From contig JAHFLF010000001.1 in the NCBI GenBank assembly GCA_023255625.1, positions 251,233-290,964 on the forward strand: a DNA stretch of 39,732 nt, written 5' to 3'. The translations under genes and the position numbers were made by a program. The notes under the pieces are model-generated. The model did not search any database and had not been told where the DNA came from. It saw only the letters and a program-made list of their open reading frames with translations. This document shows positions 2,467 through 33,514 of this stretch, in pieces; the stretch's first letter is position 1, and each line of letters begins with the position of its first letter. The stretch comes from Candidatus Harrisonbacteria bacterium (GTDB lineage Bacteria; Patescibacteriota; Minisyncoccia; UBA6257; 1-14-0-10-44-23).

Positions 2467-3624
2467 CTAGGACTTCGGCCTATTCATCTTCGCGCGGCCC
2501 TTTGCGTTGGAGATGATCTGCGCGATCCCAGTCGGCTTGAACTTCAGCCCCTGCTTCCGTGCAAACCTCTTCAGCGTCTTCGGCCCCAACCTGTCCTGCG
2601 ACAGGAGCCAGTCAGCCAGCTGTCCGATCTTCTCGAACTTCGGCGGAGTCATCTTCGGCTTGGCTTGCCGCGTCTTCACCTTGACCAGCTTCGGCGATTC
2701 CACCACCCGCGGCCGTTGCGGCGACTTACCGGCTACGACAACCTTCTCCTCCGAACGACCCTTGAGCCGGTCAACCCTCCTCTCAAGCTGACGAATCCTG
2801 CGCTTGGCATCCTTCAGCGCCTCCCTGTACTCATCGGCCTTAGCACCCCTGCGAGAATCGGCGGCAAACTTCGCCAACTCATCTGCGAAATTCGCGCGAC
2901 CCTCCTCGATCGCCTGCTGCTTTGCAGCTTCAATGTCTCTGCCGATCTCTGCGATCCGCGCTTCGAGTCCCGCGATCTGGACCTGCGCGTCCTCTGCTCT
3001 GCCCTCGGCAGCGTCCTTCGCAAGTCGAAGCACCCTCTCCTCTTCACGCATGCGCTCGACTGAACGGGCGAGCTCGTCGCGCTGCGCAACTGCCGCCGCG
3101 CATTCTGCACGAGACACCCGCGCCCCCTCTTCGCTGGCCCGACACCGCCGCTCCAGCTCCTCACATTCCAGCGCCTTGGCGGCAAGCGCTTCTTGAACCT
3201 CCTGCCAGCAAACGAGCGCCTCGGCGTAATCGCCTACTGCCTGTCGGACATCATTGCGCAGAATTTCCGCCGCGTTGAGAACTGGACTCGCCGCCGATTC
3301 ATTCGGCAGCGCTGGCAGCCCAACCATGCGCCGAATCCTGACCTCAACAGCCAGCTCGCTCGAGAGAGGGAAGACGGTGGTGTCTCCTCGCTCTTGAGCG
3401 GCGTGCTTGAGCTCCCTGAAGCGCCCCTGACTGACCGCGCCAGCTATCGGGTGGATGAACCTGATATTCCCCGAGGGAATCCCTCCTTTCAATCTACCGG
3501 CAAGCTCCTCCTTCCCAACTGCAAGCACCAGTTCGTGCGAGGGCATACTGCCCAACGAACGATCTTTCGCGGTGCCAGGCACCCAGTGCCGACCACCACT
3601 ACTACTACGATCATTTATGGACAT
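2467..3624 (-). CDS. ORFan B, coiled-coil hypothetical protein with basic C-terminus
   Basis: 385 aa ORF; long Ala/Glu/Arg heptad-rich segment; SD TGGGAGGGAGCA-ATG; upstream TATAAT on the minus strand at about 3707-3712. Confidence 0.7.
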   Translation of the reverse strand: MSINDRSSSGGRHWVPGTAKDRSLGSMPSHELVLAVGKEELAGRLKGGIPSGNIRFIHPIAGAVSQGRFRELKHAAQERGDTTVFPLSSELAVEVRIRRMVGLPALPNESAASPVLNAAEILRNDVRQAVGDYAEALVCWQEVQEALAAKALECEELERRCRASEEGARVSRAECAAAVAQRDELARSVERMREEERVLRLAKDAAEGRAEDAQVQIAGLEARIAEIGRDIEAAKQQAIEEGRANFADELAKFAADSRRGAKADEYREALKDAKRRIRQLERRVDRLKGRSEEKVVVAGKSPQRPRVVESPKLVKVKTRQAKPKMTPPKFEKIGQLADWLLSQDRLGPKTLKRFARKQGLKFKPTGIAQIISNAKGRAKMNRPKS

Positions 3625-3750: not shown

Positions 3751-3822
3751 CCAATCCAAACTTCCCGTCATAGGGAGCAGTAAAAGGTATCCCTGCTCAT
3801 CTTGACGGGAAGTTTGGATTGG
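3751..3822 (+). repeat. Apex-hairpin palindromic element E3 (20-bp outer stem, TAGG-hairpin-ATCT apex)
   Basis: CCAATCCAAACTTCCCGTCA / TGACGGGAAGTTTGGATTGG perfect arms; inner TAGG-GAGCAG-TAAAAGGTATCC-CTGCTC-ATCT. Confidence 0.85.
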
Positions 3823-7932: not shown

Positions 7933-9099
7933 TTACTGACCGGCCGAAAGATATGGTTGATACTCCGAAGTAAACTTAACCTCCAGCGGCTCTACTGCAC
8001 GGATCTTAGACCCCGCAAGCGTAACCCGCAGCATAAGCCCACGCCCGGTATCGGCTGAAAAATTTTGATCAAAAACAAAGTTGCCAAGTGAATAGGCAAT
8101 GTATCCTTCTCCCTTTCCTAAAGGGAGGGGACCGCTTGCGGTGAGGGATTTAGATTCCAAATCCCTCCCTCCTGCTGGAGTACTCCCTTTAGGAAAGGGA
8201 GAATAATACTCCACCTCCTGCGCAACATGCGGATGATGGCCAACGATCAAATCTGCACCGGCATCAATAAGCTGGTGGGCTAGCTGACGCTGTGCATTAT
8301 TAGAATGCGTCTCATACTCCTGCCCCCAATGCATACTCACTACAACAATGTCTGCGGCATATATTTTTTTCGCCTGCGCGATGAGAGCGCACATATCATA
8401 GTTACTGCGATCGCAGTAACTATGATATTTAACGCTCATACTCAATCCAGGAGTATCGCTCTTAGCCCGAGCTGACTCGCCGTAAAATTCCGTAAAACCC
8501 AAAAATGCTATTCTCGTGGTGCCTAATATTTTAATGACTGGTTCGTTGGTCTCGCTCCAATCTTTGCCGAAGCCAATATACGAAATTCCGGCCTCGCGCA
8601 GATATTGCATCGTATCACTCGCTGCAGTCAGTCCATAATCAAATATGTGATTATTCGCCAAATTCAAAACATCAAAACCAGCATGCTTCAACGCGTTTAT
8701 AGTGCTGGTTGGCGAAAACTCAAATGAGTACTCGCTCCCCTGATTTGTACCGCGAGCTGAAATTGGCCCCTCAAGATTACCGATCAACAAATCAGCGGCG
8801 CGAGTCGTGCTGGCAAGCAAAAGAAAGGGATATAACGGATTCTGCTCACGCTCAATGACTGTTCGGATAGAACGGTCAAACATCATATCGCCGACAAAAA
8901 GCAGTGTAGAGGGCTTAGACGAGATTGGCCCGGGTTTTTTATCGGCAGGCGGCACTTCGTTTACGAGGTCTCCGTGCCGATCGCCGATAAAAAACCCGGG
9001 CAGATAAAAATTCCTGGATAATACTATAAACCCAACAATCAAAATAACCCCAAAAAGACAAATTACTGAAAAATAAACTTTAGGGGATCGCCAGAACAT
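7933..9099 (-). CDS. CapA family (poly-gamma-glutamate capsule biosynthesis-like) metallophosphatase
   Basis: LLFVGDMMFDRSI, GNLEGPIS, LNLANNHIFDYG, VVVSMHWGQEY, ADLIVGHHPHVAQ, YSLGNFVFDQ. Confidence 0.92.
   Translation of the reverse strand: MFWRSPKVYFSVICLFGVILIVGFIVLSRNFYLPGFFIGDRHGDLVNEVPPADKKPGPISSKPSTLLFVGDMMFDRSIRTVIEREQNPLYPFLLLASTTRAADLLIGNLEGPISARGTNQGSEYSFEFSPTSTINALKHAGFDVLNLANNHIFDYGLTAASDTMQYLREAGISYIGFGKDWSETNEPVIKILGTTRIAFLGFTEFYGESARAKSDTPGLSMSVKYHSYCDRSNYDMCALIAQAKKIYAADIVVVSMHWGQEYETHSNNAQRQLAHQLIDAGADLIVGHHPHVAQEVEYYSPFPKGSTPAGGRDLESKSLTASGPLPLGKGEGYIAYSLGNFVFDQNFSADTGRGLMLRVTLAGSKIRAVEPLEVKFTSEYQPYLSAGQ
8107..8203 (-). repeat. 97-bp palindromic/MITE-like repeat, copy 1, in frame within capA
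   Basis: Terminal inverted repeats TTCTCCCTTTCCTAAAGGGAG / CTCCCTTTAGGAAAGGGAGAA; near-identical reverse complement of 26411-26507. Confidence 0.92.
8393..8428. repeat. 36-nt perfect palindrome inside capA
   Basis: ATATCATAGTTACTGCGA|TCGCAGTAACTATGATAT. Confidence 0.95.
8928..9001 (+). repeat. Apex-hairpin palindromic element E6 inside capA (19-bp outer stem, AGG-hairpin-ATC apex)
   Basis: GCCCGGGTTTTTTATCGGC / GCCGATAAAAAACCCGGGC; inner AGG-CGGCAC...GTGCCG-ATC. Confidence 0.85.
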
Positions 9100-10123: not shown

Positions 10124-10154
10124 AATATTTAGTATACACGATTATGATAGATGT

Positions 10155-10273
10155 GATGAGTGGGTAGGTTGCTGCTAGGGGCGGCTCTCGCAGGCCGGCG
10201 GGCCGAGAGCGCAGGGCAATTTTCCAGCAGGAAAATATGCCTGGCGCCATCTGCGGCAACCTACCCACTCATC
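10155..10273 (+). repeat. Apex-hairpin palindromic element E1 (119 bp, multi-branched)
   Basis: Arms GATGAGTGGGTAGGTTGC / GCAACCTACCCACTCATC; apex TAGG...ATCT; inner hairpin CTCTCGCAGGCCGGCGGGCCGAGAGC shared with 18687-18805. Confidence 0.85.
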
Positions 10274-11465
10274 ATGCGACCTGCGGTCTATAATCAACCA
10301 GTGTAAAAATAAATAGGCCAAGCAGCATAAATCCTGCCCCGCCAAAAAGTGCGACGGCCGGCCCAAGCAAAGTCCAGGTAAGACCGCCAATAGTACCGGC
10401 GATTAGCGATGAAGTTCCAATAGCCGCCTGTAAGAGTCCGTGGCCGGCGCCAAGGTGATGATCGGCCAGCAGCTTACTCGCAAAGGCGCGCTGAATTCCG
10501 TCAGTGATTCCCGAATACGCACCAAGAAGCGCTATACCGATGCTCATAAGATAAATCGTCGCGCTCCCGGCCAACACAAAGTAGCTAAATATTGCCAGTG
10601 AAAAACCAAAAATTAAAGTCCGGCGCCGGCCGATATCGCTGGCGATTTTGCCTGCAAACATCGCGAAAATCCAACTGGCAACCGCGTAGACTAAATAAAG
10701 TGCTGGCACTCCTTCGATACTTGGTGCGCGTAAAACAATGATTGCAACCGGCATGCAACCAATTCCAAACATAAAAACAGAAATCAGATATAAACGGAAC
10801 CGCGCGTCAAAATGACGCAGAGAAAAAACAGTACCTAAAGAATTTTGCGGCCGCAATCCCGGAGCCGTCACGCGATCCTTCACAAAGAAAAAAGCCCAGA
10901 GCGCCAAAACTCCAAGGAGTGCAGCGATAATAAAAAATGTCCGGTAGTTGAAATTGATTATCGGCAGTAAAGCGAGCGCAAGTAACGGCCCGATAACCCC
11001 GCCAAAAGCATCCATTGCCCGTTGAAAACCAAAGGATTTGCTCGCCTCATGATCATCTACCGAGCCAGAGATAAGTGCGTCCCGCGGCGCCTCGCGGACT
11101 CCTTTGCCAACCCGGTCGATAATCCGCAGAAAAAATACCTGCCATATACCAGTAACAATAATCAGCACAGAACGAGTGAGTAATGAAAGCGTATATCCGC
11201 CGACCGCAAGCCGTTTGCGTCGACCGATATGATCCGAAAACCAACCCGAAAGCATGCGTAGTACGCTGGCAACGGCCTCCGAGCTACCATCTAAAAACCC
11301 GATAAAGGCCGGCGAAGCGCCAAGTACCGTCGTCAAAAATACCGGCATGATGGACCTCACCATCTCGTTGCTGACATCATTGAAAAAACTGACAACGCCC
11401 AAAAAAAACACGTTTGGTACTACTCCAAAAAATCTGCGCGACTTTGCAGCATTGAACTCTTCCAT
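10272..11465 (-). CDS. Major facilitator superfamily transporter
   Basis: About 12 hydrophobic segments; GWFSDHIGRRKRLAVGGY and GKIASDIGRRRTLIFG MFS loop motifs. Confidence 0.88.
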   Translation of the reverse strand: MEEFNAAKSRRFFGVVPNVFFLGVVSFFNDVSNEMVRSIMPVFLTTVLGASPAFIGFLDGSSEAVASVLRMLSGWFSDHIGRRKRLAVGGYTLSLLTRSVLIIVTGIWQVFFLRIIDRVGKGVREAPRDALISGSVDDHEASKSFGFQRAMDAFGGVIGPLLALALLPIINFNYRTFFIIAALLGVLALWAFFFVKDRVTAPGLRPQNSLGTVFSLRHFDARFRLYLISVFMFGIGCMPVAIIVLRAPSIEGVPALYLVYAVASWIFAMFAGKIASDIGRRRTLIFGFSLAIFSYFVLAGSATIYLMSIGIALLGAYSGITDGIQRAFASKLLADHHLGAGHGLLQAAIGTSSLIAGTIGGLTWTLLGPAVALFGGAGFMLLGLFIFTLVDYRPQVA

Positions 11466-11474
11466 TCTCTTATT

Positions 11475-11957
11475 CTATCGCAAAACCTGAACCTCTGCAC
11501 CCTCTACGATTCCATCATTTGCAACCGTACCAGCCGGCACTTCAAACACCATATCTGCCGGTCCGGGCGAATTTACTGTCGGCGGCATAAAATTGGCTGG
11601 TCCGCCAACTGGCGGAGGTACATCCTGTGCAAAACCAATTACCTTATTCTCATTGATCCAAATAATATCCAACGGAAACTTCATCTGATACATCCAAAAT
11701 GAACGCGGCGCGGAATCTTGAAAAATAAAAAGCATGCCGTGGCCCTGCGCTAGAGAATCTCTGCTAGAAAGCCCTTGGATCTGACTTGCCATTGTTTCTG
11801 CTATTTCAATAGAATATGCAGCATCGCCGATCGTAATCTGTGCAGATCCGCCCTTTGGAATTGATGCTACGCGCGGCGAGGCACGGAAGAACCATGCCAC
11901 TGTAACTAGCGCCAGAATAAAAACAATTGGAATAATCACTTTTTTATTATTTGCCAT
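11475..11957 (-). CDS. DUF192 family protein
   Basis: ETMASQIQGLSSRDSLAQGHGMLFIFQ, SFWMYQMKFPLDIIWI, FEVPAGTV. Confidence 0.9.
   Translation of the reverse strand: MANNKKVIIPIVFILALVTVAWFFRASPRVASIPKGGSAQITIGDAAYSIEIAETMASQIQGLSSRDSLAQGHGMLFIFQDSAPRSFWMYQMKFPLDIIWINENKVIGFAQDVPPPVGGPANFMPPTVNSPGPADMVFEVPAGTVANDGIVEGAEVQVLR
11601..11616. repeat. TCCGCCAACTGGCGGA palindrome inside the DUF192 gene
   Basis: Direct reading: 7-bp arms with 2-nt centre. Confidence 0.8.
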
Positions 11958-12423
11958 ATCTCAACCCATATGCGGCGATGCCAAAGGCCACGCTGACATT
12001 CAAAGATTCTTTAACTCCCAGCATCGGAATTTCAATAATCGTATCACATTTTTTGAGAATAGCCGGTGCGATACCCTCAACTTCAGCGCCGAGGACAAGA
12101 GCGACCCTATCAAGTGAGTAGTTGGTAGTTTGTAGTGAGTAGCATGGAACCGAATCTCTTGCTTGCTCAAGAGCGATAATTTTAAATCCCTGCTTCTTTA
12201 AACTCGTTACTAACCGACTCGTACTCATGACTTTCTCCCATGCAACCGTCTTTTCCGCACCCAGCGAAACCTTGGAGAGCTGCGGCTGCACCTCGCCAAA
12301 CCGATCCTTCGGCGCCGGCGTAACCCCGCACAGATATAATTTTTCTACCCCTACTCCATCAGCGGTGCGAAAAATGGAACCGACATTATGCAGACTGCGT
12401 ATGTTATCTAAAATAACTACCAT
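11947..12423 (-). CDS. SpoU/TrmH-family RNA 2'-O-methyltransferase
   Basis: VILDNIRSLHNVGSIFRTADGVGVEKLYLCG, VALVLGAEVEGI, IPMLGVKESLNVSVAFGIA. Confidence 0.9.
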   Translation of the reverse strand: MVVILDNIRSLHNVGSIFRTADGVGVEKLYLCGVTPAPKDRFGEVQPQLSKVSLGAEKTVAWEKVMSTSRLVTSLKKQGFKIIALEQARDSVPCYSLQTTNYSLDRVALVLGAEVEGIAPAILKKCDTIIEIPMLGVKESLNVSVAFGIAAYGLRYGK

Positions 12424-12476
12424 AGGAATAGCTTATCAGCTTTTTAGCTAGTTAGCTTGTCAGCTTTAAAACTGGT

Positions 12477-12567
12477 GGCGGCGGGTTTTGTGTTTCGAGG
12501 CCATCCGCTTGCCCTGCCTGCCGGCAGGCAGGGATGGGCCTGGCCTCGAAATACAAAACCCGCCGCC
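12477..12567 (-). repeat. Long palindromic element E4 (26-bp outer stem around CCTGCCTGCCGGCAGGCAGG core)
   Basis: GGCGGCGGGTTTTGTGTTTCGAGGCC / GGCCTCGAAATACAAAACCCGCCGCC, one G-T wobble; inner apex on the minus strand AGG...GGAT. Confidence 0.85.
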
Positions 12568-12618
12568 CCATCAACTATTCACAAAAAACCTAAAATGCAG
12601 TAATATATTCGCGTTAAT

Positions 12619-12689
12619 GCCCCTATAGCTCAATGGTCGAGCAAGCGACTCTTAATCGCCAGATAATGGTTCGATTCCATTTGGGGGCA
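12619..12689 (+). tRNA. tRNA-Lys (anticodon CTT)
   Basis: GCCCCTA acceptor pairs with TGGGGGC; anticodon loop CTCTTAA; T-arm AATGG-TTCGATT-CCATT; no encoded CCA. Confidence 0.88.
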
Positions 12690-12710
12690 CCGCACAACCA
12701 GCGATGCACA

Positions 12711-14939
12711 ATGCTAGCAAACATCATCACCCTGGAAACAAAACTGGCAGCAGTAAAAGGTGTGGCGCCAAAAATGGTGCTACATCTCAAAAAACTTTCC
12801 ATTGAAACCGTCCGCGACTTGCTCTGGCACTTTCCAACTCGGTACGAAGACTATTCAAAGGTTACAAAAATCGCCGATCTCAAAGTTGGCGAGATGGTTA
12901 CCGTGCGTGGCGAGGTCCGCCATGTTGCAGTAAAGCGCGCCTGGAAATCGTTTATGCCAATAGTTGAGGCGACCGTTACCGATGAAACCGGCGGCATTAC
13001 GCTGGTCTGGTTTAACCAGCCATTCATGAGTAAGGCGCTGTTTGTAGGCGCACATGCCAACTTTGCCGGCAAAGTGTTTGCAAATAAAACAGGCCTTCAT
13101 CTTTCTAATCCCAGTTACGAAATTTTACGTGGCACAACGGTTACAACGCATACCGCCGGCTTAATCCCCGTCTACCCGGAGACGCGCGGCCTGACCAGCA
13201 AAGGACTGCGATATTTAGTTAAACAATTTTTAGACATTATTCCGAAGATTGATGATTTTCTGCCAGAAGAAATTTTGAAAGCCAACAACCTGCCCTCGCT
13301 TGATTACGCCCTGCGCCATATTCACTTTCCACACAGCAGCGAGCAGGCCGCGCTTGCACGCACCCGCTTTGCCTTTGAGTATGTTTTCTTGCTGCAACTG
13401 CACACGGCACAACTCCGTCAGGAATTACTTCAAGAGCAGGCGCCGGCAATTGTGCTTAACAAGGCGCGGCTCGGCGCACTCCACACGCAACTTCCGTTCA
13501 CACTAACACAGAGCCAACAGATCTCATTAGATGAAATCATTGCGGACATAGCAAAACCAACGCCCATGAACCGCCTGCTTCAAGGCGATGTGGGAAGCGG
13601 CAAGACGGCCGTTGCAGCACTGGCAGCACTCGCAACCGCGCAGTGTGGCTACCAGGCGATTTTCATGGCACCAACAGAGGTTTTAGCACGGCAGCATTAT
13701 CATTCAATCACTAAAACATTCAGAACATTTGATGGCGGTGTTGCGCTACTCACCGGCTCTGAAGCTCGAATGTATCATGGCGAGCAATTAGAGGAAAAAA
13801 TTAGTAAAGCGCGGCTCGCTTCGCTCGCCGCATCCGGCAACATTTCTCTTGTCATAGGCACGCACGCGCTCCTAGCGCGTGACAAAAAATCAGCATTAAA
13901 GTTGTCCTTGCCGCGCCTTGGCCTGGTTATCATTGACGAGCAGCACCGATTTGGCGTTTCGCAACGCGCCGCCCTCCTTGGCAGTCGCACAGAAAATAAA
14001 TCCGGTTCCATCGCCCACCAACTAACCAAGCAACCAACTAACCAAGCAGCGACTCTTCCCCATTTCCTAAGCATGTCCGCCACCCCCATCCCCCGCACCT
14101 TATCACTCGTTGTCTTTGGTGACCTGGATGTCTCTACGATTAACGAACTACCCAAGGGCCGCAAAGCCATCATCACAAAAATTGTTGACCCGACAAACCG
14201 ACCAAAGGCATACGGATTTATTAAGCAGCAGATAGCCGCCGGCAGACAGGCCTTTTTTATCTACCCTCGCATCGAAGAATCTACTGCTCCCGAACAACAG
14301 ACCCTGACGCAAGAGCTCATGACCAAAGCAAAAACCTCCATATTCGCAGCCGAAATGAAAGCCGTCAAAGCCGAATACGAACGCCTCTCAAAAACCGTCT
14401 TCCCTGACCTGCGCGTCGCAATGCTCCACGGCAAAATGAAAGCAACTGAAAAAGCAAAGGTCATGGCGGACTTTAAATCAGGAAAAACAGATATTCTTGT
14501 TTCAACCTCGGTCATTGAGGTCGGTGTGGATGTGCCCAACGCAAGCATCATGGTTATTGAGGGCGCCGAGCGCTTTGGACTCGCGCAACTCTACCAGTTC
14601 CGCGGACGCGTGGGCCGCGGTGAACACCAGTCATTTTGCTTCTTGTTTACTGACTCAACCGCTGAAACAACTGCGGCGCGGCTCAACGCGTTAATTGATG
14701 CTAAAAACGGCTTTGAGCTTGCCGAAAAAGATTTAGAGCTGCGCGGCCCGGGACAGTTCCTTGGCGACAAGCAAACGGGCATTCCTGATACTGCCATGCA
14801 GTCGTTAAACGACATCCGGCTCGTCAAAGCAGCGCGGGACAGCGCACAGAAATTATTAGCTACTGACCCGCAACTCCTAACTTATATCCGACTTAAAGAA
14901 AAACTCGACCAGATGAAAAAAAATCTACACCTAGAATAA
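12711..14939 (+). CDS. recG: ATP-dependent DNA helicase RecG
   Basis: GDVGSGKTAVAALAAL (Walker A), IIDEQHRFGVSQR (DEQH), SMSATPIPRTL, QFRGRVGRGEHQSFC. Start moved to 12711 because the ORF-track start lies inside the tRNA. Confidence 0.95.
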   Translation: MLANIITLETKLAAVKGVAPKMVLHLKKLSIETVRDLLWHFPTRYEDYSKVTKIADLKVGEMVTVRGEVRHVAVKRAWKSFMPIVEATVTDETGGITLVWFNQPFMSKALFVGAHANFAGKVFANKTGLHLSNPSYEILRGTTVTTHTAGLIPVYPETRGLTSKGLRYLVKQFLDIIPKIDDFLPEEILKANNLPSLDYALRHIHFPHSSEQAALARTRFAFEYVFLLQLHTAQLRQELLQEQAPAIVLNKARLGALHTQLPFTLTQSQQISLDEIIADIAKPTPMNRLLQGDVGSGKTAVAALAALATAQCGYQAIFMAPTEVLARQHYHSITKTFRTFDGGVALLTGSEARMYHGEQLEEKISKARLASLAASGNISLVIGTHALLARDKKSALKLSLPRLGLVIIDEQHRFGVSQRAALLGSRTENKSGSIAHQLTKQPTNQAATLPHFLSMSATPIPRTLSLVVFGDLDVSTINELPKGRKAIITKIVDPTNRPKAYGFIKQQIAAGRQAFFIYPRIEESTAPEQQTLTQELMTKAKTSIFAAEMKAVKAEYERLSKTVFPDLRVAMLHGKMKATEKAKVMADFKSGKTDILVSTSVIEVGVDVPNASIMVIEGAERFGLAQLYQFRGRVGRGEHQSFCFLFTDSTAETTAARLNALIDAKNGFELAEKDLELRGPGQFLGDKQTGIPDTAMQSLNDIRLVKAARDSAQKLLATDPQLLTYIRLKEKLDQMKKNLHLE

Positions 14940-14944
14940 TGCAT

Positions 14945-15313
14945 CTATAATTTTACAAGTAATGCACGAACTTTGCCCAGTCTTTCAGAAATCGCATCTC
15001 TATCTTCTGCTGTTATTTCGATCAGTCCAGCAAGACGGTGTGCCTCCCGTAGTGTTTCATTCAGAGTGCGCACTGTCTCTACGCTAACGCGAAGCTCACG
15101 CAAACGACCCTTATTCCGTTGGGCCTCCAAAAAATCAGCCAGATCGGCAAGGGCAAATCCAACTTCGCGTTGATCCGCATCTGGCATCCCGGCAAAGAAT
15201 GGCACTATGTCTTTATCGAAAACATCTAAAGCATCAGCTGGCGAACTGATAAGTACCTCTGTATCAGCCCCAGAAATACCGCCAATGAATTCCTTGCTCT
15301 CAAAATTCGACAT
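14945..15313 (-). CDS. Hypothetical protein
   Basis: ORF of about 122 aa in a compact intergenic position (MSNFESKEFIGG...). Confidence 0.6.
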   Translation of the reverse strand: MSNFESKEFIGGISGADTEVLISSPADALDVFDKDIVPFFAGMPDADQREVGFALADLADFLEAQRNKGRLRELRVSVETVRTLNETLREAHRLAGLIEITAEDRDAISERLGKVRALLVKL

Positions 15314-15318
15314 AAACA

Positions 15319-15732
15319 CTATAAATTAATACCAAGTAAATTATTTAATGAAAAGAATCCGCTCCCCAGTGTCGCAAGCAGCAAAAGCGAGGCGAGCAAA
15401 ATCAAGTCCAGTTCTAAAAACTGGAAAAAGCTCTTTTTGGCGCGCAGGTTTGTTATTGCGGCAACGACCATGACGATGGCTAAGGCGAGTGCAGCTGGCG
15501 CAGTCCAAAAACCAATCAAGATAAAGAAGCCGCCGAGAAGCTCCGCCGCCATCGCGAGTCCAGCCCAAAAAGCGCCCGGCTTTAAGCCAATACCGCCAAA
15601 CCATCCTGCTACCGCGCTAAAACTTTTTGCCTTCCGAACTCCGTGAGCCAGAAAAATAACTCCCAGAACAATCCGAAGCGTTAAAATCGCCCAATCCGAC
15701 TGCGCAACCAATGCGTTTAAAATGTTTTGCAT
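15319..15732 (-). CDS. DoxX family membrane protein
   Basis: LRIVLGVIFLAHGVRKA, GWFGGIGLKPG, AELLGGFFILIGFWT. Confidence 0.85.
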   Translation of the reverse strand: MQNILNALVAQSDWAILTLRIVLGVIFLAHGVRKAKSFSAVAGWFGGIGLKPGAFWAGLAMAAELLGGFFILIGFWTAPAALALAIVMVVAAITNLRAKKSFFQFLELDLILLASLLLLATLGSGFFSLNNLLGINL

Positions 15733-15747
15733 ATTATTTTACAGTAT

Positions 15748-15834
15748 TCGCCAACATGCTAATACAGACGAATACACTAATGAATTCACATTCGCATATT
15801 AGGCCTTATTAGCGTGTTCGCGAATACTGCTGTA
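15748..15834. repeat. Imperfect long palindrome rich in ATTCGC/TTAGC units
   Basis: CAGTATTCGCCAACATGCTAATA... / ...TTATTAGCGTGTTCGCGAATACTG. Confidence 0.75.
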
Positions 15835-15868
15835 CATTATACCCGAAATACGATATTTTTGTAGCACT

Positions 15869-15943
15869 GCTCCTATCGTCTAGTCTGGCCTAGGACGCTG
15901 GATTTTCATTCCAGTAACTCGGGTTCAAATCCCGATGGGAGCG
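15869..15943 (+). tRNA. tRNA-Glu (anticodon TTC)
   Basis: GCTCCTA / TGGGAGC acceptor; anticodon stem-loop CTGGA-TTTTCAT-TCCAG; T-loop GGTTCAAATCC. Confidence 0.9.
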
Positions 15944-15998
15944 CAAAAAAATAATCACGCATCGGCCATCGAACCACGATATGTTATAATTAATATAT

Positions 15999-16700
15999 AT
16001 GTACAGATGGCGAGAGAAAGAAAAGATAATCGCTCTCAAACTTCGAGGGCTTGGTAAAAGCTATAGGGAGGTGCAAAGCAAGATACCGGGCATTTCACGC
16101 AGTACGCTTTCAATTTGGTTTCGTGATTTGAAACTATCACCAGCGGCAGCAAAAATTTTGGAAGCCAAAAAAGAACGGGCTGAAAACAATATTATCAAGT
16201 GGAGCAAGGAGCGTAGCGCAGCTGCGAAGACAAGAAATACTGAAACTACTCAAGAATACTCTGATGCAATTGGTAAACTTTCTCGGCGCGATCTTATGCT
16301 GGTCGGCGCATCTCTCTATTGGGGAGAGGGCTCATTGCAAATCCGAGGAGGACCATATCCACATCATAAAACTGAATTTTCAAATTCATCACCTGAAATG
16401 ACGCGAGTATTCATGCGTTTCGCCCGTGAGATATTAGGAGTACCAACAGAGCAATTTCGTCCGCATGTTCAAATTTATCCAAATCTTGATGCGCAGGAAA
16501 GTATTGCATTCTGGGCTAAAGTTACAGAAATCCCCGATTCCTATTTTCGCGCCTACACTCAAGTTAGTAGCGCAAGCAAACATAAACGCCCAATCAATTT
16601 TTTACCGCATGGTACCGTTCAAATTCGCATCAACAATCCAGTAAACTTCTACAAAATCCAGGGCTGCATTAATGGTATTATTAAGAACGCAAATTCATAG
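15999..16700 (+). CDS. HTH protein with putative LAGLIDADG-like C-terminal domain
   Basis: N-terminal RGLGKSYREVQSKIPGISRSTLSIWFRDL (HTH); C-terminal VGASLYWGEGS...FSNSSPEMTRVFMRFAREILGV pattern. TATAAT 8 nt before ATG. Confidence 0.6.
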   Translation: MYRWREKEKIIALKLRGLGKSYREVQSKIPGISRSTLSIWFRDLKLSPAAAKILEAKKERAENNIIKWSKERSAAAKTRNTETTQEYSDAIGKLSRRDLMLVGASLYWGEGSLQIRGGPYPHHKTEFSNSSPEMTRVFMRFAREILGVPTEQFRPHVQIYPNLDAQESIAFWAKVTEIPDSYFRAYTQVSSASKHKRPINFLPHGTVQIRINNPVNFYKIQGCINGIIKNANS

Positions 16701-16707
16701 TCAACCT

Positions 16708-17199
16708 ATGCCCCATCACCCAACCGTAGACACCATCAAAGAGTTGCTTGGAGAAAACGGCTGCCAGTACGACTGTTTTGAGCACGAACCGGTACGCACG
16801 AGCGAAGAAGCGGCAAAAGTCAGAACTGGCTATACTCTGGAGCAAGGTGCGAAAGCGATAATCGCCAGAGTGAAAGAGCCGGGCAAAGGCAAAAAATTCG
16901 TAATGCTTGTGATGCCTGGCAGCAAAAGGTTCGACGGCGCAAAGATTGAGTCAAATCTTGGTTTTAAAGAAATTCGATTCGCGACCGAAGATGAGGTGAA
17001 AGAAATCACCGGCGGAATACTGCCCGGTGGTGTGCCACCATTTGGAAATTTATTTAATCTTGAGGTATTTGCCGATAAATCTCTTTTCAAAAACGAACGG
17101 ATCATTTTCAACGCCGGCGACAGGTCGGTTTCTGTTGGAATCAAGTCAGCAGACTATCAGAGAATCGTGAGTCCGAGATTAGTAGATATTGTTGAGTAA
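16708..17199 (+). CDS. YbaK/EbsC-type aminoacyl-tRNA deacylase
   Basis: YDCFEHEPVRTSEEAAKV, LEQGAKAIIARV, GGILPGGVPPFGNLF. Confidence 0.88.
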   Translation: MPHHPTVDTIKELLGENGCQYDCFEHEPVRTSEEAAKVRTGYTLEQGAKAIIARVKEPGKGKKFVMLVMPGSKRFDGAKIESNLGFKEIRFATEDEVKEITGGILPGGVPPFGNLFNLEVFADKSLFKNERIIFNAGDRSVSVGIKSADYQRIVSPRLVDIVE

Positions 17200-17234
17200 G
17201 TAAGAGTGTAACCATCCGGTGCTACACTTAAAGG

Positions 17235-17720
17235 ATGCGCCACAAGTCCTTTACCCTCTTCGGACGCTCCTCCTCTCTCCTGCTTTTGATTTTCTACAAG
17301 CTACTCATGGCGCTCATTGAGATGCTCGCGGGCAGTTTGTGTTTACTCACGGCATTTTTTGCAAAACATATTTCTTTAATCACTGCGATTGATCGCGCGG
17401 CAACTGACGACCAGCTTGACCAGTTCGTCCGCTGGCTGGTGCATTACATCAACGACCTGAAGATAGATCACGAACTCATTCTGCATATCGGGCTAGTCTT
17501 AATCGCTTTGGGAATTTTTAAAATATTTGTAGCGATAGGGTTATGGTTCAAGAGCACCAAGATGCGCATACTGGCTCTCGTCATCTTCGGCGCACTGGCA
17601 ATTTACAGTATGTACCACCTGATTGTCGACTTCTCTACCATCAAACTACTCGCCCTTTTCGTCGACCTCTTTATCGTGTACTATTTCTGGAAAATTCTCC
17701 CAAAACACTTAGAACGTTAA
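17235..17720 (+). CDS. Membrane protein (DUF2127-like)
   Basis: Several hydrophobic segments; LIEMLAGSLCLLTAFF, HIGLVLIALGIFKIFVAIGLW. Confidence 0.6.
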   Translation: MRHKSFTLFGRSSSLLLLIFYKLLMALIEMLAGSLCLLTAFFAKHISLITAIDRAATDDQLDQFVRWLVHYINDLKIDHELILHIGLVLIALGIFKIFVAIGLWFKSTKMRILALVIFGALAIYSMYHLIVDFSTIKLLALFVDLFIVYYFWKILPKHLER

Positions 17721-17731
17721 AGTATAGAGTC

Positions 17732-18676
17732 ATGATAGCAAAAAAATACACTGGCTTGGTTCTGGTTCTTGGATTTCTTCTGATTCTCGGGGCGGTTGTT
17801 TGGAGCACGACTCGTTATTTCGAAGCGATTGCGCTGACCCAGCAGACTCAGGTTGATCTTTACACTAATCTTATAAACCAAGCCGAAGCTCGAGTCAGCA
17901 CACTGGAAAAACAAGTTGGCCTGCTGATTAACGATAACAAAAATGTACAAAAACAACTGACGGAAGAAGAGCAAAAAAGAAAATTGGTTGAACAGCAACG
18001 CACCGCCGAACAACTGAAGTCCCAACAACAAATCTCGCAGCTGACCAAAGATCTAGACGCGGCAAAGACACCAAATGTAATTGGACTAATCCAAACCTGG
18101 CGGCCGCGCGTTGCTATTGTGGCTTGCCGGGTTGAAACTCCGGACGGCCGGATAAGCGAAAGCCGTGGCTCGGGCGTTCTCCTTGCAACATCGCCGAACT
18201 ACATAATTACCACCAACCGACATGTAGTTAATTATTCCGGCTATGATGCCAAACATTGCTCAATTCAATTTCCGAATGACCCGGAAATAATCATCGCTTA
18301 TCGAGAGGACATCCACCCCTCTTCAGATGGAGTTGACTGGGCAACCATTATCATAAAACCAAGCGCTAAACTGGCAGCGGCTAATCTTGGCCCGGCTCTG
18401 CGCTGTGATCGAAAAGCAGCTCTTGGCGAAAATATTATCGTCCTCGGCTATCCGAATATCGGAGCGGTCGGCGATGTTACCGCCACCGAGGGCATCATCT
18501 CCGGACTGGAAGGACTTTATTACATTACCTCCGCCAAGGTAGAACGCGGTAACTCCGGTGGGGCAGCGATCTTAGCCAAAGAAAACTGCTATCTGGGCAC
18601 GCCAACTTATGTCGGAGCGGGGCAAATCGAAACCCTGGCCCGGATTTTAGATCAGGGCGTGATAGGCACACAATAG
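17732..18676 (+). CDS. Trypsin-like serine protease with N-terminal TM and coiled coil
   Basis: SRGSGVLLATSPNYIITTNRHVV, D..WATIIIK, KVERGNSGGAAI (GNSGG). Start refined to the internal ATG. Confidence 0.85.
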   Translation: MIAKKYTGLVLVLGFLLILGAVVWSTTRYFEAIALTQQTQVDLYTNLINQAEARVSTLEKQVGLLINDNKNVQKQLTEEEQKRKLVEQQRTAEQLKSQQQISQLTKDLDAAKTPNVIGLIQTWRPRVAIVACRVETPDGRISESRGSGVLLATSPNYIITTNRHVVNYSGYDAKHCSIQFPNDPEIIIAYREDIHPSSDGVDWATIIIKPSAKLAAANLGPALRCDRKAALGENIIVLGYPNIGAVGDVTATEGIISGLEGLYYITSAKVERGNSGGAAILAKENCYLGTPTYVGAGQIETLARILDQGVIGTQ

Positions 18677-18686
18677 TAAATCTGAA

Positions 18687-18805
18687 GCGCAGTCCGCGAT
18701 TTCTTGCTAGGCGGCCCTCTCGCAGGCCGAGGAGGCCGAGAGCAGTCGCTGCGCGAGCCGCGCGCAGATAGACGGGGCCGGTCTGCAGGAAAGCGCGGAC
18801 TGCGC
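18687..18805 (+). repeat. Apex-hairpin palindromic element E2 (119 bp, multi-branched)
   Basis: GCGCAGTCCGCGATTTCTTGC / GCAGGAAAGCGCGGACTGCGC; apex TAGG...GTCT; inner CTCTCGCAGGCCGAGGAGGCCGAGAGC. Confidence 0.85.
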
Positions 18806-20436: not shown

Positions 20437-20474
20437 CTCTTCGGTGCTTATTCGCACGAATAAGCACCGAAGAG
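20437..20474. repeat. Perfect palindrome CTCTTCGGTGCTTATTCG-CA-CGAATAAGCACCGAAGAG
   Basis: 18-bp arms with 2-nt loop. Confidence 0.92.
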
Positions 20475-26356: not shown

Positions 26357-26409
26357 TATAATCTCAAAGAGTGGCCAATATCGCCTATGCGGCGATATCT
26401 AGCACCACT
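26357..26409 (+). promoter_or_regulatory. Promoter -10 (TATAAT) and adjacent inverted repeat AGTGG...CCACT upstream of trmB-like gene 1
   Basis: TTGACG...TATAAT then AGTGGCCAATATCGCCTATGCGGCGATATCTAGCACCACT; the AGTGGCCAA motif recurs before trmB-like gene 2. Confidence 0.55.
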
Positions 26410-26410
26410 A

Positions 26411-26507
26411 TTCTCCCTTTTCTAAAGGGAGTACTCCAGCAGGAGGGAGGGATTTCGCATTCAAATCCCTCACCGCAAGCGGTCCCCTCCCTTTAGGAAA
26501 GGGAGAA
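26411..26507 (+). repeat. 97-bp palindromic/MITE-like repeat, copy 2
   Basis: TTCTCCCTTTTCTAAAGGGAG...CTCCCTTTAGGAAAGGGAGAA. Confidence 0.93.
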
Positions 26508-26515
26508 TAAATACT

Positions 26516-30108: not shown

Positions 30109-30867
30109 ATGTACCAAGAAACATTTGAAGGGCTCGGCCTCTCCCCTAACGAGGCAAAAATCTATGAAGTGCTCGTTGAACACGGCCAGTCCGGGGTCAG
30201 CGACATTGCCACGCACGCCCAAATTCACCGTCGTAATGCCTACGACGCCATTCGCCGGCTCGTAGACAAGGGGCTCTGCTTTGAAATATTTTCATCTAAA
30301 GAAAATCTATATAGCGCGGTTGACCCGGGCAAACTTTTGGAGCTCGCCGACGAAAAACGCCGTACAGTTGAGATAATTCTGCCGGAACTGAATAAAAAGT
30401 TTCATGCCACATCAGCAGATGAAGAGGCTTTTATCTACAAAGGTCTTGAAGGACAGAAAAATGTGTGGCGCGATGTGGTGCGCGTTGGCGGAGAAAACTT
30501 CTTTATCGGCGGCAAGGCCACCTGGTCTGATCCACGGCTTGTCTCTAGCCGAGCGGCATTTTTTAAAGAGGCCAACCGGAAAGGCATTACCTTCAAACAG
30601 CTGTATGATAGCGAGGTGATTGAAAAATTCCCCAATCACTTTAAGGATTACCCTGGAAAATCACAGAACCGCCTGCTGCCTAAGAAATACTCAACCACCT
30701 CGGCTATCCATATCTTCGGCGATTATGTCGTAACCTATACAGGGCTCACTCAAGTGAAAAATATCCCCGACGATGTGGTATTTTTTGTGCTCCATAGCGC
30801 CAGCTTAGCCGCAAGCTACCGAACCTGGTTTACCTACATGTGGGAACAGTCAAAGGAGATTAAATAG
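30109..30867 (+). CDS. TrmB-family transcriptional regulator 2
   Basis: Close paralogue of 26516-27271 (MYQETFEGLGLSPNEAKIYEVLVEHGQSGVSDIATHAQIHRRNAYDAIRRLVDKGLCFEIFSSKENLY). Confidence 0.88.
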   Translation: MYQETFEGLGLSPNEAKIYEVLVEHGQSGVSDIATHAQIHRRNAYDAIRRLVDKGLCFEIFSSKENLYSAVDPGKLLELADEKRRTVEIILPELNKKFHATSADEEAFIYKGLEGQKNVWRDVVRVGGENFFIGGKATWSDPRLVSSRAAFFKEANRKGITFKQLYDSEVIEKFPNHFKDYPGKSQNRLLPKKYSTTSAIHIFGDYVVTYTGLTQVKNIPDDVVFFVLHSASLAASYRTWFTYMWEQSKEIK

Positions 30868-30900
30868 CATTTAACAATTTCGCGAAATTGTTAAATGCTA
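30865..30900. repeat. 36-nt loopless perfect palindrome starting at the stop codon of trmB-like gene 2
   Basis: TAGCATTTAACAATTTCG|CGAAATTGTTAAATGCTA; first three bases are the TAG stop. Confidence 0.95.
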
Positions 30901-33474: not shown

Positions 33475-33514
33475 AAATATCATAGATGCTGCTATCGCAG
33501 CATCTATGATATTT
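33475..33514. repeat. 40-nt palindrome abutting the stop of trmB-like gene 3
   Basis: AAATATCATAGATGCTGC-TATC-GCAGCATCTATGATATTT; related to the capA palindrome at 8393-8428. Confidence 0.95.

Follow-up and report, generated by a model that had tools for sequence, protein, structure and literature searches.

A probably mobile, dispersed DNA palindrome with a branched core and apparently site-derived arms in Patescibacteria

Two branched palindromes at gene ends

The window analysed here, a 39,732-nucleotide stretch of the genome of a Candidatus Harrisonbacteria bacterium, contains two palindromic elements of equal length, E1 (10155–10273) and E2 (18687–18805), which the initial annotation of the sequence had located correctly. 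The outer end of E1 touches the stop codon (10272–10274, minus strand) of a neighbouring MFS-type open reading frame. E2 is positioned between the stop codon of a trypsin-like open reading frame (17543–18676), located 10 nt before its left arm, and that of a convergent glutamate-dehydrogenase-like open reading frame, located 6 nt from its right arm.

Each element is composed of a conserved core, read on the plus strand, and two outer arms, to which no strand is assigned. The left arm of E1 (10154–10172) is a 19-bp perfect inverted repeat of the right arm (10256–10274). The 83 nt between these perfect arms constitute the core (10173–10255), which contains an internal loop TAGG/ATCT, an inner stem, and a three-way junction; the covariance model described below matches E1 at contig positions C8:261396-261499 of the plus strand. 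Hairpin A of E1 (10185–10209, plus strand; motif match C8:261417-261441) reads CTCTC[GCA]GGCC-GGCG-GGCCGAGAG and is conserved in an alignment of 73 copies. Hairpin B (10214–10241, plus strand), delimited from predicted folds, has an AGCA loop and a covarying stem. The left arm of E2 (18687–18703) is 17 bp long and has one mismatch to the right arm (18789–18805, from the comparison of perfect arms). The E2 core (18704–18788, plus strand; covariance-model match C8:269928-270031) belongs to the subtype of copies L006, L007, and L012, with core identities of 95–99%. Its hairpin A (18717–18742, plus strand; motif match C8:269949-269974) reads CTCTC[GCA]GGCC-GAGGA-GGCCGAGAG, and its hairpin B (18745–18773, plus strand) is again delimited from predicted folds and has a covarying stem.

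The sequence TGCTAGG at position 19 of both elements and the hairpin formed by CTCTCGCAGGCC and GGCCGAGAG, together with a second hairpin, are present in both copies as the initial annotation had reported. Its description of the outer arms as self-complementary but unrelated between the copies is correct, except that the strictly perfect parts are shorter than proposed, with the lengths given above. The predicted folding energies are −85.7 kcal/mol for E1 (z-score −9.7) and −80.3 kcal/mol for E2 (z-score −6.0) relative to dinucleotide shuffles, and none of 200 shuffles matched the energy of either element.

Copies and their common fold in Patescibacteria

The motif CTCTCGCAGGCC-N-GGCCGAGAG occurs twelve times in the 932-kb source genome, and a reversed-pattern control had no occurrence. 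A mismatch-tolerant search added two further real copies, and a covariance model calculated from these 14 detected 24 copies in the source genome. In the sister species G001 from the same genus there are six copies, which form a subtype of their own, and a second genus of the family has a single copy. The element is present in 43 of 245 genomes of the order, in 68 of 387 genomes of the class, often in several copies and up to at least ten, and in 22 of 381 genomes of a phylum sample, including other classes; the copy numbers per genome are lower bounds, since the two largest searches considered ~10 candidates per genome. Structural homologues of E1 and E2 occur from the source genome to the level of the phylum. 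A strict-pattern scan of 85,462 GTDB species identified the element in Parcubacteria-group genomes only, all with the same fold. None of 4227 Rfam families matched above the gathering score, which agrees with the earlier suggestion that the family is uncatalogued, and a literature search, mostly outside subscription journals, found no description of comparable elements from Patescibacteria.

Nearly all copies of this family of ~120-nt elements share the same predicted fold, which combines an outer stem, usually an internal loop, an inner stem, and two hairpins at a three-way junction. The outer stem is long and its sequence is unique to each site; the exception is copy L001/L054, which has no matching arms. 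The internal loop is short, mostly TAGG/RTCT. The inner stem and the two hairpins are formed by the conserved core of ~76–85 nt. Hairpin A is conserved and contains a 3-nt GCA bulge, whereas hairpin B has a variable stem and a conserved AGCA-type loop. In a plain MAFFT alignment of the first 14 copies, 94.7% of the cells were paired and 26 of 39 pairs had changes on both sides, a result obtained with none of 500 shuffles. In an alignment of 73 copies from many genomes (A3), which was fitted to the covariance model, 92.7% of the cells were paired, 38 of 39 pairs had changes on both sides, and the covariation was 0.817, compared to 0.182 after shuffling and ~0.1 after sliding. All seven helices covary, including the inner stem and the second hairpin, for which covariation had been proposed from the two copies in the window. 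Several further palindrome families of the source genome are built on this plan, an indication that a general process is at work instead of one element alone.

The strong covariation in all helices and the nearly invariant bulge and loop bases are features expected from a structured functional RNA, either cis-regulatory or located at the 3′ end of a transcript, that is kept by selection on base pairing. Furthermore, imperfect arm pairs include 48 G.U but 13 A.C pairs, and selection on one folded strand is therefore possible, although the model itself favours that strand and contributes to the bias. Together with the nearly invariant bases, the bias is a hint that one of the strands is recognised in folded, single-stranded form, as either DNA or RNA. 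However, such stems can also be produced and preserved by template switching during replication (PMC8794818), and arm covariation is therefore not by itself proof of an RNA function. The absence of a match in Rfam and the orientation of the cores in the source genome also speak against the RNA: relative to the nearest gene end, ~14 cores are antisense, five are sense, and the rest are ambiguous. The 14:5 bias is not significant.

Intergenic copies in the source genome are mostly located just past stop codons, most of them within ~20 bp. This position would fit a transcription terminator or an mRNA-end stabiliser with an elaborate tip. Nevertheless, neither strand has a U-tract after E1 or E2, copy L052 is located between divergent genes, and other copies occupy rRNA spacers and the interior of reading frames. 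The initial annotation had argued against a plain terminator, and the evidence bears this out; we consider the terminator reading very unlikely. An assembly or amplification artefact in the form of inverted chimeras has a negligible probability. Palindromic reads are a known amplification artefact (PMC13265396), and a few copies are at contig ends, but the same core is present in many independently assembled genomes, and copies at orthologous sites of different species, in-frame copies, and covariation are incompatible with an artefact. The artefact explanation is refuted by the cross-genome homology.

Insertion sites and the origin of the arms

Among source-genome copies with core identity of at least 90%, the cores are on average 94% identical, the inner 10 bp of the arms 59%, and the outer arms 24%, which corresponds to chance. 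Core identity reaches 99% between copies that carry unrelated outer stems. The core has therefore been dispersed without the outer arms. The element is absent from the orthologous sites checked in the sister species G001, where the flanking genes are conserved and mostly end at the same codon or within a few residues of it. These filled and empty sites were compared at ~70% identity, which is too distant to define the exact junction or a direct target-site duplication. Two species contain independent copies with opposite orientations and unrelated arms in the same spacer, which we take from its flanks to be that between the 23S and 5S rRNA genes. The insertions are lineage-specific.

Some orthologous copies have been kept between species at 68–88% DNA identity, and one of them, upstream of a CIRCE-like heat-shock promoter, is kept in three species. 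Paired changes in the arms separate the orthologous copies in TsaD and in L225/L228. The persistence of orthologous copies at these distances exceeds that expected of a pure parasite. It counts against a mobile element and in favour of a functional RNA.

Copies are also present in frame within essential protein genes of other species, namely those for TsaD, UvrB, UvrD, RecG, DnaE, and cysteine desulfurase; none was seen within a gene among the 24 copies of the source genome. They represent approximately eight independent events in six gene families, and the reading frame is open in every copy found. Translation of the insert is therefore the simplest reading, as in Rickettsia palindromic elements (PMC10969869). 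In alignments of TsaD, UvrB, DnaE, and RecG, the stretch is extra relative to solved homologues. The TsaD and UvrB inserts each occur in two species. In UvrD, the insert has one orientation in L243 and L245 and the other in L308, and L246 and L247 are without it. The RecG inserts of L299 and L250 have opposite orientations, and RecG of the source genome contains none. A conserved short peptide was rejected as the cause of the conservation, because different genes contain the core in either orientation and in more than one reading frame, and no single peptide accounts for this. The in-frame copies in unrelated genes and in both orientations, the empty sites within the genus, and the near-identical cores in unrelated arms are difficult to reconcile with a functional RNA, which we regard as an improbable primary explanation. 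The initial annotation had proposed either a structured RNA or a DNA cruciform or single-stranded DNA substrate. Its premise of a conserved branched structure with variable sequence stands, and the DNA option fits better than RNA as the primary reading.

The sequences of several sites indicate where the arms come from. Copy L046 has the gene end GTGGGCTATTTC in its right arm and the inverted copy as its left arm, whereas G001 keeps GTGGGCTATTTC as a single copy without a palindrome. An arm of copy L060 spans the last codons of the neighbouring gene (LRV-stop), the end of which is conserved in the sister species, and an arm of copy L058 extends into the promoter-like sequence of the next gene. 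In the UvrD copy, the right arm encodes the native segment EEKST, which corresponds to DKGS or EKGT in insert-free homologues, and the left arm is complementary to it. In UvrB, by way of exception, neither arm is clearly native; the arms differ between the two species but match each other within each. Possibly, the UvrB insertion is old and for this reason has no arm that is clearly native. Comparison of the sequences at several sites thus supports the interpretation that the target itself provides one arm, of which the other is an inverted copy.

The arms could instead be old target palindromes, for example terminators, into which the core was inserted without any copying of flanking DNA. Plain long hairpins are frequent near the gene ends of the source genome, and the G001 site orthologous to copy L066 consists of a terminator-like hairpin of 18 bp. 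However, most other checked G001 sites do not contain a hairpin, insert-free homologues of TsaD, UvrB, and UvrD do not have a palindrome at the corresponding position, and a terminator is not expected between the 23S and 5S rRNA genes. Insertion into pre-existing hairpins is therefore unlikely. Template switching during replication has been shown to turn local sequence into perfect inverted repeats and to repair their pairing (PMC8794818), and the same process can explain both the birth and the upkeep of the arms.

A probably mobile DNA element and its closest known analogues

Near-identical cores in unrelated arms, their mixed orientation, the copies in the 23S–5S spacer and in reading frames, and the empty sites in the sister species indicate that the family is probably a dispersed and mobile palindromic DNA element. 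A structured RNA or a terminator explains less of the evidence. E1 and E2 are likely to be copies of such a non-autonomous element, with arms copied in inverted form from the flanking DNA. Against this reading, neither a transposase nor an excised form or a polymorphic insertion was observed.

Based on these comparisons, a mechanism of insertion can be proposed. The core would fold as single-stranded DNA, and its paired ends may serve as a fold-back primer or as a point of template switching. Either the insertion itself or the subsequent replication would copy ~10–25 nt of flanking DNA in inverted form to produce the arms, which may later be kept complementary by template switching, selection, or both. 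Insertions would survive where they cause little harm, at gene ends, in rRNA spacers, and in variable protein loops where the frame stays open. We speculate, more tentatively, that single-stranded hairpin elements form a class that extends throughout the phylum, and that the folded core joins the target strand and its paired 3′ end copies the flank, so that each element makes its own perfect inverted arms. Several unrelated cores of the source genome may use the same fold-back process. We know of no described bacterial element with a transposition signature of this kind, in which the target duplication is inverted rather than direct.

Transposases of the Y1/RAYT type were considered as mobilisers. 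Y1_Tnp is more common in element-bearing genomes (25 of 43, compared to 47 of 202; Fisher p = 1.4e-5). Nevertheless, the candidate was rejected, since no PF01797 (Y1_Tnp) match above the cut-off was found in the source genome or the genome from the same genus, and the Y1 genes of several Y1-bearing genomes are flanked by different, simple 16-bp REP-like hairpins of their own. REPs in general are simple hairpins of 20–40 bp with a GTAG or CGTC tag (PMC3733652); their recognised form is probably a single-stranded hairpin (PMC3116915, PMC2817692, PMC6006769). The element resembles REPs and REPINs with RAYT (Y1) in being small, palindromic, dispersed, and mostly extragenic, but its core is larger, branched, and without either tag, and no Y1_Tnp scores above the cut-off in its source genome.

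The element shares with MITEs its non-autonomous nature, inverted repeats, and dispersed occurrence. The terminal inverted repeats of MITEs are common to all copies and are flanked by direct target duplications, whereas the terminal repeats described here differ at every site (outer-arm identity 0.24 at a core identity of 0.94). Template-switch hairpins are likewise perfect inverted repeats derived from local sequence and kept perfect (PMC8794818), and palindromes of this type also occur inside coding regions (PMC6649704). However, such hairpins and coding palindromes have no conserved dispersed core, whereas here a repeated structured core is located at the apex.

Rickettsia palindromic elements are repeats of ~100–150 bp with many copies, both intergenic and in frame in housekeeping genes (PMC10969869). 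The likeness, which is one of description rather than alignment, includes the palindromic form, the many copies, and the in-frame insertions in unrelated protein genes. Families of Rickettsia palindromic elements are conserved along most of their length. The element described here differs in its phylum, its three-way-branched core, and the unique, apparently target-derived arms of each site. The element is best placed among the small palindromic mobile elements, the apparently site-derived arms being its unusual property and the Rickettsia elements its nearest analogue.

The strong covariation of the stems is a caution that such covariation alone does not prove a functional RNA. With arms that appear to come from the target, the element allows the question of how long perfect hairpins arise to be tested directly, through a comparison of filled with empty sites. 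The element would be a common repeat of Patescibacteria missed by current catalogues of RNAs and mobile elements, and it resides even in genes for DNA repair and tRNA modification, in organisms whose genomes are reduced.

Further palindromes in the window genome

Palindrome families other than the E elements, the branched palindromes with a three-way-branched core, occur in the window and in further stretches of the same genome (L102 to L121). The second family, which has the same TAG(G)/ATCT junction as the E elements, has a core of 30–36 nt (TAGGGAGCAGTAAAAGGTATCCCTGCTCATCT) at the apex of 16–22 bp arms that are unique to each site. Its copies are located at window 3751-3822, L102:1276-1341, L107:8487-8554, L113:11901-11974, L115:14546-14615, and, in L117, at both 1673-1740 and 3254-3329. 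In the fourth family, unique and mostly perfect arms of 21–31 bp enclose an 18–19 nt core (ATCCCGTAGGGTGAGCCC); copies are present at L103:18309, L105:15058, L107:1515, L112:5012, 9021, 10365 and 10492, L116:1457 and 10549, L118:10452, and L120:1598.

Perfect palindromes with stems of 16–25 bp and loops of 0–4 nt are numerous (window 8393-8428, 20437-20474, 30865-30900 and 33475-33514; L102:3112 and 17881; L116:8629; L120:6309). Several have a centre in common (for example, ACAGCGTACT|AGTACGCTGT), and their outer parts are site-specific. About 440 kb contained 25 zero-loop palindromes with stems of at least 13 bp.

Repeats within a CapA-like ORF

The third family, with unique arms around the core AGGCGGC..GCCG(G/A)TC, is represented at L104:17949-18023, L121:15997-16061, and window 8928-9001, where the copy lies in frame within a CapA-like ORF (7933-9099). 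The same ORF contains one copy of a MITE-like repeat, which is composed of a 55-nt multi-hairpin core and conserved arms (CTCCCTTTCCTAAAGGGAG) and is found at window 8107-8203 and 26409-26509, L103:19809, and L110:18931.

Hairpins and an E-element variant in related genomes

Stretches from related genomes (L284, L270, L271, L283 and L266) carry RAYT-like Y1 transposase genes of about 240 aa, which are accompanied by their own hairpins of 14–25 bp with loops of 1–3 nt, such as GCCACTGTTGGAAGTC-g-GACTTCCAACAGTGGC. Therefore, REP/RAYT systems exist in the order of the window genome. In three species of one genus (L220, L223 and L288), a CIRCE-like heat-shock promoter (TTAGCGCTTGACACTCCCGAGTGCTAA) is immediately preceded by a longer variant of the E element, which is kept there as if it had been co-opted.
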